This document shows, in pieces, positions 2,311 to 5,507 of a stretch of 34,138 nt of DNA (position 1 is the stretch's first letter; each line of letters begins with the position of its first letter). The translations under genes were made by a program, and so were the position numbers. The stretch comes from a virus. Location of the stretch: the IMG/VR virus record IMGVR_UViG_3300042386_000397, positions 1 to 34,138 of that record; one strand, written 5' to 3'. Under the pieces are notes generated by a model that made no database searches, was not told where the DNA came from, and saw nothing but the letters and a program-made list of their open reading frames with translations.

Positions 2311-3294
2311 CGTCTTTGTCCTCTATAGGGGAGACTTTTACATATAGTACTATAGAGTACTAAGACATTATATTTAAGTTATATAGACATAACATTATAA
2401 GATACTTATATTAGTTATTAATATTAATTTACTTATAATATTTAATTTAAGTGGTATTTTAACTACTATGTTCCCCTACTAGGGTGTGCATATCAGCCTA
2501 CTTAGTCTTAACTTAGAAGTGGGGTCAGGCTTCTCAGTAAACTCAATTATATCCTATGAAGAATATTGTATCATACTTTTGTCTGTTTGTCAAGCTTTTA
2601 TTGTCATGTACACATATATTTTTACATTTATGTGATTGTAGTCACATATATGTTCACTTTAACGCTACGCTGAAGTTCCCTTACAAAGTGTCTGTACTTA
2701 CACACAAGTACCTACATTTTAGATACTTTGTAGTCTACACTACTTTTACTTTATAAATCAAGTACTTATGGTTACTTCATCTGTCCCTAATTAGTCCTTT
2801 TTAGTTTTACTTTTTTGTGAACTTTAGAGGCTCCTACAACAATCTTCACATCTACGATGACCCTCCCCCCCTATGAAGTTAGTTAGTGCTTACTTCGCAG
2901 TGCCTACAAAGTCATAAGTACACTTACGAGTTTAAGTTAGTGAGTACTTACTAGCATACTTGCATGAAACGTTAATGAGAATCATTCGCATCTACAATGC
3001 TGGGGTGTGTAGGACGGTGTAGGATCCTTTGAAGTACTCTCAAGCATACTCTTAAGGGTATAAGTATATACTCTATAGGGTATGCACGTTTATACCAGGA
3101 TTTTAGCATCAAGTCTTATATAAGACATAAGAGTACTCTTCTATAAGACATAAGATATAAGACATAAGAGTACGGTAAGACATAGGGTTTATACGTAAGG
3201 GTTTATAGTTTAAAAATAAATGTATTTGTAAGGTTCACGTAAGGTTCAAGCTTGATACTCTATCCATCGCAACAACAAACCAAAGGGTTTACAT
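2311..3294. promoter_or_regulatory. Divergent AT-rich intergenic control region (possible promoters and origin)
   Basis: Nearly 1 kb without a convincing gene separates the leftward terminase genes from the rightward early block, so promoters for both must lie here or be read into it. It is very AT-rich around 2340-2460. It holds many copies of a GTACTTA-like word (near 2694, 2760, 2943) and inverted repeats such as GTACTATAGAGTAC (2347-2360), GTCTTATATAAGAC (3113-3126) and AAGAGTACTCTT (3129-3140). A run of seven C (2865-2871) and a tandem 14-base repeat (3119-3169) are also present. The word CTCTATAGGG occurs at 2321-2330 and 3071-3080. No single consensus promoter could be fixed with confidence. 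A replication origin or packaging site here is inferred. Confidence 0.6.
3119..3184. repeat. Tandem 14-bp iteron-like repeat TATAAGACATAAGA
   Basis: Three exact copies of TATAAGACATAAGA lie at 3119-3132, 3142-3155 and 3156-3169, the last two directly adjacent, and a partial copy TAAGACATA is at 3176-3184. Copies one and three are each followed by GTAC. Copy one overlaps the palindrome GTCTTATATAAGAC (3113-3126) and runs into AAGAGTACTCTT (3129-3140). This arrangement looks like binding sites for an initiator or regulator ahead of the first early gene. Confidence 0.85.
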
Positions 3295-3530: not shown

Positions 3531-3626
3531 ATGCTAGATAAATGCTTAGATATCATACTTGCCATTGCAATCGGTTTATGCTTATGCATGGGCTTGCTTG
3601 CATACTTTGACGTACTTACAAAATAA
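3531..3626 (+). CDS. 31-residue single-span membrane peptide
   Basis: A very short frame encodes a peptide with the hydrophobic run IILAIAIGLCLCMGLLAYF flanked by charged ends (MLDK and DVLTK), a plausible single membrane span. It is preceded by AGGGG at good spacing (3520-3524). Its leader TAAACTAGGGGATC closely matches the leader of the next gene (TAAACTAGGGATAT, 3624-3637), which supports real translation. It sits between two other rightward genes with short gaps. The function is unknown; a membrane-acting early peptide is possible. Confidence 0.5.
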   Translation: MLDKCLDIILAIAIGLCLCMGLLAYFDVLTK

Positions 3627-3640
3627 ACTAGGGATATACC

Positions 3641-4510
3641 ATGCAAATTAAACTGTTTTCAAATAGTGCTCAAAAATTCAAAGCTTTGCAAGGGCTTGCA
3701 ATAGCTATTCAAGGTGGCACGCAAGATAGTGCCATGCAAGCATTAAAAACCTTGCAAGCTTCTAGCATGTTCACCGGCAAAGGGTGGCAAGATAACTTTG
3801 CAAAGCTTGAGCATACATTTAAAACCTTAGATCCAAGTTATAGTGTATTTTCTTTGAACGGTAATTCTAAGTTGCCGTTCGTATCATTTTCAAGCTTGCC
3901 CGGTGTGACATGTCCGGGAGCGGGTGAATGCTTAGAATTCTGCTATAGCTTCCGTGCATGGCGTTATCCCGCTGCATTCATGAGACAAGCCCAAAATGCA
4001 TACTTGATGCGCTATGCTCCCGATTCTATTGTCAAAGCTTTGCACATTGTAGATGCATCGTTTAAGGGTTCACAATATGACGTGCGTCTATACGTTGACG
4101 GTGATTTTAGCAGCGACAATGACGTGAAATTTTGGTTCGATCTAATTAAAACCGTGCCCAATGCAAGGGTTTACGGTTATTCAAAAAGCTTCAATCAAAT
4201 TATGTCTTATGCGGGTGATCTACCGTCTAATTATGTATTAAACGTATCCGGTGGCCACAATTCAAGCATTGATACAGTGAAAACGGTTAAAGCATTGTCA
4301 ATTACTAGGGGCGAATTTATTGCCGTTCGTATAGGCAAAAAGGTTCGCTCAAGTGATCACGGCAAGCCGGAAACCGTCAAAGCTTTAAGACAAGCATTCA
4401 CGGGCAAAGCTTTCCCATGTCCGGGGACATGCGGCACGTGCACCGGAAAAGGCCATGCATGCGGCATGCAAGCTTTGAAGGGCGTGCCCATTATCATTGC
4501 CATGCATTAA
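3641..4510 (+). CDS. GP88-like cysteine-rich phage protein
   Basis: This 289-residue protein resembles the mycobacteriophage 'gene product 88' family (Pfam GP88), which occurs in many phages and plasmids and has no established function that I know. An N-terminal helical region precedes FSLPGVTCPGAGECLEFCYS (about 84-103, consensus CPGAxxCxxxC). A central domain with LYVDGDFSS follows, and a C-terminal cluster FPCPGTCGTCTGKGHACGM (about 256-275). The two cysteine groups suggest a bound metal or iron-sulfur cluster, which is inference. Codon use is unlike the replication genes: many GGC, ACG and GCA codons and GCATGC words. A short hairpin terminator follows at 4558-4577. The leader AAACTAGGGATATACC supplies the ribosome site. 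Confidence 0.8.
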   Translation: MQIKLFSNSAQKFKALQGLAIAIQGGTQDSAMQALKTLQASSMFTGKGWQDNFAKLEHTFKTLDPSYSVFSLNGNSKLPFVSFSSLPGVTCPGAGECLEFCYSFRAWRYPAAFMRQAQNAYLMRYAPDSIVKALHIVDASFKGSQYDVRLYVDGDFSSDNDVKFWFDLIKTVPNARVYGYSKSFNQIMSYAGDLPSNYVLNVSGGHNSSIDTVKTVKALSITRGEFIAVRIGKKVRSSDHGKPETVKALRQAFTGKAFPCPGTCGTCTGKGHACGMQALKGVPIIIAMH

Positions 4511-4530
4511 TGATGCTAGATTCTAGAATG

Positions 4531-4577
4531 TAGCGCATGCTTATACGTGCGCTATGTCCTACAATCTGTAGGTTTTT
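4531..4577 (+). terminator. Two hairpins after the GP88-like gene, second with a T-tract
   Basis: TAGCGCA (4531-4537) pairs with TGCGCTA (4548-4554) across a 10-base loop. Immediately after, CCTACA (4558-4563) pairs with TGTAGG (4567-4572) across ATC and is followed by TTTTT (4573-4577). The second element has the form of a weak rho-independent terminator on the plus strand. It would attenuate transcription between the GP88-like gene and the next small genes. Confidence 0.55.
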
Positions 4578-4600
4578 AATCCAAAGTAAGGGTAATTAAA

Positions 4601-4861
4601 ATGTTGACTATTGAAGCAAGCAAAACCGTTCGCCCATTGCACGTGATTGCACGTGATATCTATCAAGCATGGCCTAAGGTCAATTATGCTGCAAAACCGT
4701 ACTTAGAAGCAATGCGAGATCTATCATCGATCAACGATCGTTATGGTTATGATGATGCAAGATCTATTGTCTTATACTTTTTGTCTAATGCTGCAAGCTT
4801 TAAGGGTGATACAGCTAAGCTTTTAAAGCTTGAATTGAAGGCTATTGCAGGGATCAAATAA
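4601..4861 (+). CDS. Hypothetical small phage protein (YAAKPYLEAM type)
   Basis: This 86-residue protein is predicted all-helical and soluble. It contains the block VNYAAKPYLEAMRDLSSIND followed by DDARSIVLYFLSNAASFKGD. I recall unnamed phage and plasmid proteins with the same NYAAKPYLEAM and SIVxYFLSNAxxxxG pattern, but no function. It belongs to the compositionally distinct small-gene group with its neighbours. The following gene starts one base after its stop. Confidence 0.7.
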   Translation: MLTIEASKTVRPLHVIARDIYQAWPKVNYAAKPYLEAMRDLSSINDRYGYDDARSIVLYFLSNAASFKGDTAKLLKLELKAIAGIK

Positions 4862-4862
4862 C

Positions 4863-5177
4863 ATGTTAAAACGGTTTACTAAACTACAAAAAACCCGCAT
4901 TGTAAACAACATTGTAAGGGCTTGCACGGATCCCGACAAGCTTAATAAGCAAGGCTATGATTTTCTATATCTTGCAAGCGGGTTTATAGCGCATTACAAT
5001 TTAAAGGGCTTTATTGGGCACTATTCCCAATGGCATAGCCTTAGAAGTGACATTCTAGAAAATCAACGGTACAATCAATGGCACAATTTTGGCGTGAATG
5101 ACAATGATTTTGGCTATTACATGGATAAACGTGCGATCTACAATGCAATTTGCATTCAATTGAAAGAGGGTGAATAA
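4863..5177 (+). CDS. Hypothetical protein, 104 residues
   Basis: The ATG at 4863 is preferred over an upstream in-frame TTG at 4845 because AGGGATCAA lies just before it. This start leaves the upstream gene's stop undisturbed. The protein is basic at its start (MLKRFTKLQKTRIVNNIVRA) and rich in Tyr, Trp, His and Asn further on (FIAHYNLKGFIGHYSQWHSL, NQWHNFGVNDNDFGYYMDKR). It has no membrane span or signal peptide and no family I recognise. It shares base composition with the GP88-like gene and is packed between two other small genes. Confidence 0.65.
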   Translation: MLKRFTKLQKTRIVNNIVRACTDPDKLNKQGYDFLYLASGFIAHYNLKGFIGHYSQWHSLRSDILENQRYNQWHNFGVNDNDFGYYMDKRAIYNAICIQLKEGE

Positions 5178-5181
5178 CATC

Positions 5182-5379
5182 ATGCTACAAATAAACGATT
5201 ACAAGCGCAAAACCAAAGAACAGTTGCGTTATATCATTGACGATGCTACATTGGCGGCAAGGGCTATGCAATCAATTGGCAATAGTGCTGCAGAGGGCAA
5301 GTATCGGGATCAAGTAAACGATGCATGCTCCGAGCTATATAAAAGGTCTATTAAGGTTTTAAGGGGAAAACGAGCATGA
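5182..5379 (+). CDS. Hypothetical small basic protein, 65 residues
   Basis: The start is taken as ATG at 5182, with GAGGG at 5166-5170 upstream. An in-frame GTG at 5170 would add four residues and overlap the previous gene. The product is basic and helical (NDYKRKTKEQLRYIIDDATL, YKRSIKVLRGKRA). It could bind nucleic acid, but no motif is visible. Its stop TGA overlaps the ATG of the next gene (ATGA, 5376-5379), indicating coupled translation. Confidence 0.6.
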   Translation: MLQINDYKRKTKEQLRYIIDDATLAARAMQSIGNSAAEGKYRDQVNDACSELYKRSIKVLRGKRA

Positions 5380-5507
5380 TAAAACGTATGCGGGCAAGGT
5401 TTAAGGGGCTATGCTGCAGATCCGGTGCATGTATCAACATTGGCGATGAAATTATGTATGATACAGTGACACGGCAAGCATGGATAACAGTGGACAATGA
5501 CAGATAA
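5376..5507 (+). CDS. 43-residue small phage protein with GDEIMYD motif
   Basis: The ATG at 5376 overlaps the preceding stop by ATGA. The product starts basic (MIKRMRARFKG), has two close cysteines and a third nearby (CCRSGAC), then INIGDEIMYDTVTRQAWITV. I recall many tiny phage proteins of this plan, with a cysteine pair followed by KGDxIxYD, as if a small beta zinc-binding fold. The first gene after it begins 8 bases downstream. Its function is unknown. Confidence 0.6.
   Translation: MIKRMRARFKGLCCRSGACINIGDEIMYDTVTRQAWITVDNDR

Follow-up and report, generated by a model that had tools for sequence, protein, structure and literature searches.

GP88 (PF17338) and DUF7227 (PF23872) are phage protein families without known function, and our literature search found no paper naming either of them. 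Cultured phages hold 265 records of one subtype of GP88-type genes and 147 of another, and such genes are also present in archaeal viruses. The nearest described proteins by predicted fold are the radical-SAM enzymes, which carry a cluster motif after strand 1 and a GGE motif after strand 2. For the small protein family phrog_13953, PHROG lists no function, and the recurrent GP88/DUF7227 neighbourhood reported below is not in the family record. Here we analyse a virus record of 34,138 bases (hereafter the window), in which a GP88 gene, a conserved tandem hairpin and a gene for an 86-aa protein of phrog_13953 follow each other within a compositional island. We give about even chances to the view that they form an exchangeable early cassette, made of a radical-SAM-like protein, a recurrent small partner and a conserved tandem hairpin that closes it.

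At the left end of the window the terminase genes run leftward, and they are followed by a divergent region with repeats and then by the rightward early genes, namely a 73-aa gene, a 31-aa membrane peptide, GP88, small genes and replication genes in this order (Table 1). Three imperfect copies of TCTTATATAAGACATAAGA, possibly regulatory or origin-related, lie at 3114-3173 in the divergent region ahead of the early genes. About 20 related loci have a homologue of the membrane peptide ahead of GP88, and the peptide has no Pfam or PHROG match above the cut-off. It stands upstream of GP88 even where the GP88 is of another subtype (L054, L055).

Table 1. Features of the island and its surroundings in the window
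Feature	Position	Strand	Evidence and remarks
31-aa predicted membrane peptide	3531..3626	+	upstream island edge; homologues 52-100% identical
GP88 protein, 289 aa	3641..4510	+	PF17338 E 9.5e-19; alignment of 37 homologues; AlphaFold2
TAGA and hairpin 1	4524..4557	+	covariation; covariance model; contains GCATGC at 4535
Hairpin 2, CCTACA-ATC-TGTAGG and T-run, terminator-like	4558..4577	+	terminator scan
86-aa helical protein	4601..4861	+	phrog_13953 E 6.7e-22; alignment of 46 homologues; AlphaFold2
104-aa protein	4863..5177	+	no family match in Pfam or PHROG; with GP88 mainly within the same phage lineage
65-aa protein	5182..5379	+	lineage-restricted; no family
43-aa protein	5376..5507	+	lineage-restricted; no family; downstream island edge

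The earlier note had described 3531-5507 as a compositionally distinct island, and both codon and tetranucleotide statistics bear this out, with borders that fit these positions. No other 600-codon block of the record deviates as much: the island has a codon distance of 174.5, equal-sized blocks average 63.7 (sd 32.6), and every block approaching 174.5 overlaps the island; the codon statistics therefore differ from those of the rest of the genome. Compared with the other rightward genes, the island prefers GGC (.44 vs.14), GCA (.52 vs.28) and ACG (.19 vs.08), and GGT and GGA together account for.74 in those genes vs.40 in the island, all as had been noticed before. Preferred even more are ACC (.33 vs.16, stronger than ACG), CCC and CCG (together.76 vs.17), CAA (.96 vs.51), TGC (.81 vs.35) and AAA. 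Gene by gene, the signal is carried by GP88 (z 7.2) and the 104-aa gene (z 3.3), the remaining small genes being too short for single-gene codon tests. The tetranucleotide distance of the island is likewise the largest within the window, with CTG/CAG depleted and TGCA, AAGCTT and GCAAGC enriched. As for the word GCATGC, said to be confined to the island, it occurs exactly four times in the record (4457, 4464, 4535 and 5323), all in the island, where 1.9 are expected, and not once in the 32 kb outside, where 8.4 are expected; the oddity is its absence elsewhere as much as its excess inside. The backbone avoids palindromes generally (4-mers 1647 vs 1901 expected, 6-mers 334 vs 434 expected), a pattern as under restriction pressure, and the island is free of this avoidance (4-mers 183 vs 159 expected, 6-mers 63 vs 60 expected), which would fit DNA from a source with a different restriction history. 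Counts of single words outside 3531-5507 are 65 for GATC (108 expected), 103 for CATG (158), 0 for CGCG (7) and 1 for CCATGG (10).

The window GP88 matches PF17338 at 68.6 bits, against a curated cut-off of 24.4. Its sequence has C91-x5-C97-x3-C101-Y after strand 1, R149..G154-D155 after strand 2 and C260-C264-C267-C274 near the C-terminus, and the GD after strand 2 is invariant among the 37 aligned homologues. Compared with the Pfam GP88 and DUF7227 families, the window type is longer at the N-terminus by about 75 residues, modelled as helices, and spaces its C-terminal cysteines differently. Further subtypes are the L054 type, a type without C-terminal cysteines, DUF7227 and an unnamed type. 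The L054 type matches both PF17338 and DUF7227; by profile comparison it is linked to DUF7227 with 89% probability and the window type to the cysteine-poor type with 73%, and the unnamed type is only weakly linked (9-11%). The unnamed type (L084, L107, L075, L127 and L068) reads CG.C ... CYV ... YGD ... CPAS ... C..C..C, has weak DUF7227 matches only, and accounts for 147 cultured phage records, Klebsiella phages among them. A reciprocal scan with DUF7227 returned the query contig itself as the sole match. A search of the sequences of solved structures gave no match for GP88 or the 86-aa protein, NCBIfam gave none, and the Pfam search found no ArdcN domain in either protein.

The AlphaFold2 model of GP88 (pLDDT 91, pTM 0.89) has N-terminal helices followed by a radical-SAM-like partial barrel. 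Six PDB chains exceed a Z of 8, scoring 8.8-9.1 over 187-200 residues with rmsd 4.0-5.2, and every one of them is a spore photoproduct lyase; the resemblance is moderate given the warning of the structure-search tool that a best Z of 7-8 is common. RlmN comes next with Z 6.1, and lipoyl synthase, MqnE, BtrN, SpeY, Cfr and HydE follow, interspersed with other barrels; Foldseek compares GP88 with spore photoproduct lyase at E 0.18 and prob 0.82. Like these enzymes, GP88 has a partial barrel in which strand 1 is followed by three cysteines and strand 2 by GD, and it has further cysteines close to the C-terminus. However, its first cluster is C-x5-C-x3-C instead of the canonical C-x3-C-x2-C, relatives showing other spacings still, and it has no match to Pfam Radical_SAM up to E 1. 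Because of this spacing and the missing superfamily match, we file GP88 as radical-SAM-like and not as a member; it is most likely a divergent radical-SAM-like iron-sulphur enzyme, for which iron-sulphur and SAM chemistry would be predicted. The same two cysteine clusters, the non-canonical spacing and the lack of a Pfam radical-SAM match could also speak for a structural or regulatory protein whose cysteines hold zinc, with no enzymatic activity; we consider this rather unlikely, as radical-SAM enzymes head the fold matches by a wide margin over unrelated barrels and the GD motif is invariant. A repair or alteration of nucleic-acid bases in the style of spore photoproduct lyase or RlmN, the closest folds to GP88, also comes to mind; since fold likeness shows no function and the cysteine spacing is unlike that of both enzymes, we regard such a role as unlikely. 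The phage family DUF5131 (Gp37/Gp68) also resembles GP88 in having CYA after strand 1, and aligns with it in register over strands 3-4 at a sub-significant 46% profile probability, but the DUF5131 family alignment is without the C-terminal cysteine cluster. This comparison rests on real sequence records; the DUF5131 member of the ANMV-1 virus has a weak radical-SAM match.

The 86-aa protein has the motif W..VN.AAKPYLEAM...YFLSNA..WRG..AK..K.ELK, and its AlphaFold2 model is a small helical fold (pLDDT 91) for which the fold search gave no clear match. Among 47 non-redundant loci chosen by the 86-aa gene alone, 17 have a GP88/DUF7227-type gene, always within 1.75 kb and in 10 of them at most 330 bases away, and the other 30 have no GP88-type gene within reach in the available DNA. 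Neither gene was found in 80 random viral loci (716 kb). The 86-aa gene adjoins GP88 in mycobacteriophage IronMan, DUF7227 in phage DSL-LC05 (gammaproteobacterial host) and a GP88-like gene of the unnamed type in Gordonia phage Anon. Viewed from the other side, the majority of GP88 genes of other phages are without it, and for the unnamed type it is present in 21 of 80 loci (3 of 9 when made non-redundant). The 86-aa protein is thus a recurrent, not obligate, neighbour of GP88/DUF7227 proteins in unrelated phages, and the two proteins may be physical partners. Large phages have the 86-aa sequence as a domain within longer proteins, and it forms the C-terminal part of large proteins that also contain a peptidoglycan-binding domain (L101) or a ferritin-like domain (L104, L119); as a guide to function these fusions were not informative. 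The plasmids searched gave no homologue, and in bacterial genomes a scan with a single peptide pattern gave matches at two loci (one metagenome-assembled genome).

Between the GP88 stop codon and the 86-aa gene lies a tandem hairpin that the earlier note had missed, hairpin 1 occupying 4528-4557 and hairpin 2 with its T-run following directly. Hairpin 1 has the form AUGUA-stem-loop-stem-UAUGU in the window and CUGUA/UAUGG at its ends in most relatives. Over 14 GP88 loci from related and unrelated phages its covariation score is 0.570 against 0.189 in shuffled alignments, with 96.8% of cells paired; when the alignment is slid by 1-3 columns the score is at most 0.15, a comparison in which the true register has an advantage, the structure being taken from the same alignment. 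The ends (TAGA-CUGUA/UAUGG, with two G-U pairs) are conserved and the stem varies by compensation. A covariance model finds 14 matches in 530 kb from 51 sources, all 3' of a GP88-type gene and including four loci outside the model-building set. In 3.0 Mb of loci picked mostly for GP88 or the 86-aa gene, a regular expression finds 28 matches, 27 of them 12-212 bases behind GP88-type genes. We also scanned the whole viral collection independently of genes with the pattern TAGACTGTA-N(15-24)-TATGGCCTA. The stems are complementary in 88 of the 90 matches obtained (L018, L007, L002, L076 and new loci), and 47 of these 88 share their locus with a GP88-type gene, several subtypes being represented; that gene is mostly 7-264 bases upstream of the hairpin and downstream of it in four of the 47. 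Other elements stand behind genes with an ArdcN domain (PF08401, E 4.8e-7) or behind clamp-like genes, and because this unbiased scan places the element behind other genes too, the hairpin as a mark of GP88 alone is rejected. Of the 69 distinct elements, 68 include hairpin 2, where shuffled sequences give 14.9. Overall, the order of GP88, hairpin and 86-aa gene recurs in about two dozen loci. In four loci (L401, L403, L405 and L408) the tandem hairpin occurs twice, with 1.1-1.9 kb between the copies and a different gene in front of each; one of the two genes is ArdC-N-like in every locus.

Could the element simply be an intrinsic terminator, common among these phages and without any role specific to the module? 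Hairpin 2 has the G+C-rich hairpin and T-run of such a terminator, the element mostly lies 8-21 bases past a stop codon, and it also follows ArdC-N-like, clamp-like and other genes. Yet the conserved ends and compensating stem of hairpin 1 exceed the needs of a terminator, and the element is rare, as its near-confinement to GP88-type genes in the 3.0 Mb shows; on balance we rate the plain terminator at a little short of even chances. The T-run is weak or absent in some relatives, and a candidate attenuator-like fold with upstream bases would be mutually exclusive with hairpin 2. Rfam covariance models gave no match in the window and three relatives, and by eye the element ends in TAGACTGTA / TATGGCCTA and not in the RYYYAAC / GTTRRRY of the integron attC base.

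That the island was acquired as one module, as had been proposed, holds for a part of it. GP88, the hairpin and the 86-aa gene recur across unrelated backbones and with different GP88 subtypes, so co-occurrence elsewhere is established by the neighbour search, but outside this phage lineage the genes at 4863, 5182 and 5376 hardly ever go with GP88. A travelling set of all five small genes is therefore rejected beyond the lineage. Exchange can be seen in both directions. L054 and L055 have terminases 92-94% identical to that of the window (and L054 a helicase 93% identical), with a distant GP88 of about 21% identity in the same slot adjoining the 86-aa gene; L016 and L031 have a GP88 70-71% identical to that of the window, yet their terminases are unlike. 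The odd composition could alternatively reflect selection, for expression timing or word avoidance, instead of acquisition: many GP88 orthologues of 57-71% identity, in phages of differing base composition, likewise have little CTG/CAG and much TGCA. However, the orthologues of L026, L027 and L029 lack this composition, the distant GP88 in the same slot and backbone of L054 and L055 has normal CTG/CAG, and the island is also free of palindrome avoidance. Codons with a differing residue fit the window dialect overall no better than their own flank, with gains and losses mixed, and at codons differing between orthologues the foreign dialect is kept in some phages only. With this mixed outcome we make no strong claim for selection on codon dialect and hold it to be improbable; a composition common to many but not all orthologues, and inconsistently kept, indicates a fading trait of the gene lineage and is no proof of selection.

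The GP88-type gene stands at the beginning of a rightward operon opposite leftward genes including terminase in the window, L016, L029, L031 and DSL-LC05. In the T7-like Mesorhizobium phage Lo5R7ANS it is gene 2, and in mycobacteriophages such as IronMan it is at the right end, which in L5-type phages holds the early lytic promoter Pleft (PMC5712189). No early-end pattern was found for the GP88 relative of Synechococcus phage B23. GP88 of the window would accordingly be expressed early. The earlier note had thought of an early host-takeover or defence unit; the position at or near the operon start fits this in several phages, and in other phages the same hairpin follows an ArdC-N-like gene of the anti-restriction type. 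Together, position and company suggest counter-defence or host takeover as a putative role of GP88.

In the exchangeable-cassette reading, the GP88 gene, the tandem hairpin and the small helical partner gene would be located at the beginning of the early operon of tailed phages or close to it, and being swapped between phages would keep a foreign composition. Both encoded proteins, GP88 and its 86-aa neighbour, would be active within minutes of infection, with host machinery, host defence or nucleic acid as their target. For the hairpin, the most likely role is to terminate the GP88 transcript or to make it more stable, and it may serve as a shared junction for swapping. A bolder version, which we put forward as speculation with a low chance of being right, has GP88/DUF7227 proteins as virus-specific radical-SAM-like enzymes that form with the 86-aa protein an early pair for counter-defence or host takeover, on cassettes that have their conserved tandem hairpin, as a dedicated RNA or site of exchange, in common with ArdC-like anti-restriction genes. 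GP88-type genes are found in hundreds of cultured phages, often at the early genome end, and have had no known function; that function becomes directly testable now that the protein has a probable enzyme fold and a partner that recurs, and the gene a hairpin conserved on its 3' side. In addition, the tandem hairpin is a handle for finding more early accessory genes, ArdC-N-like ones included.
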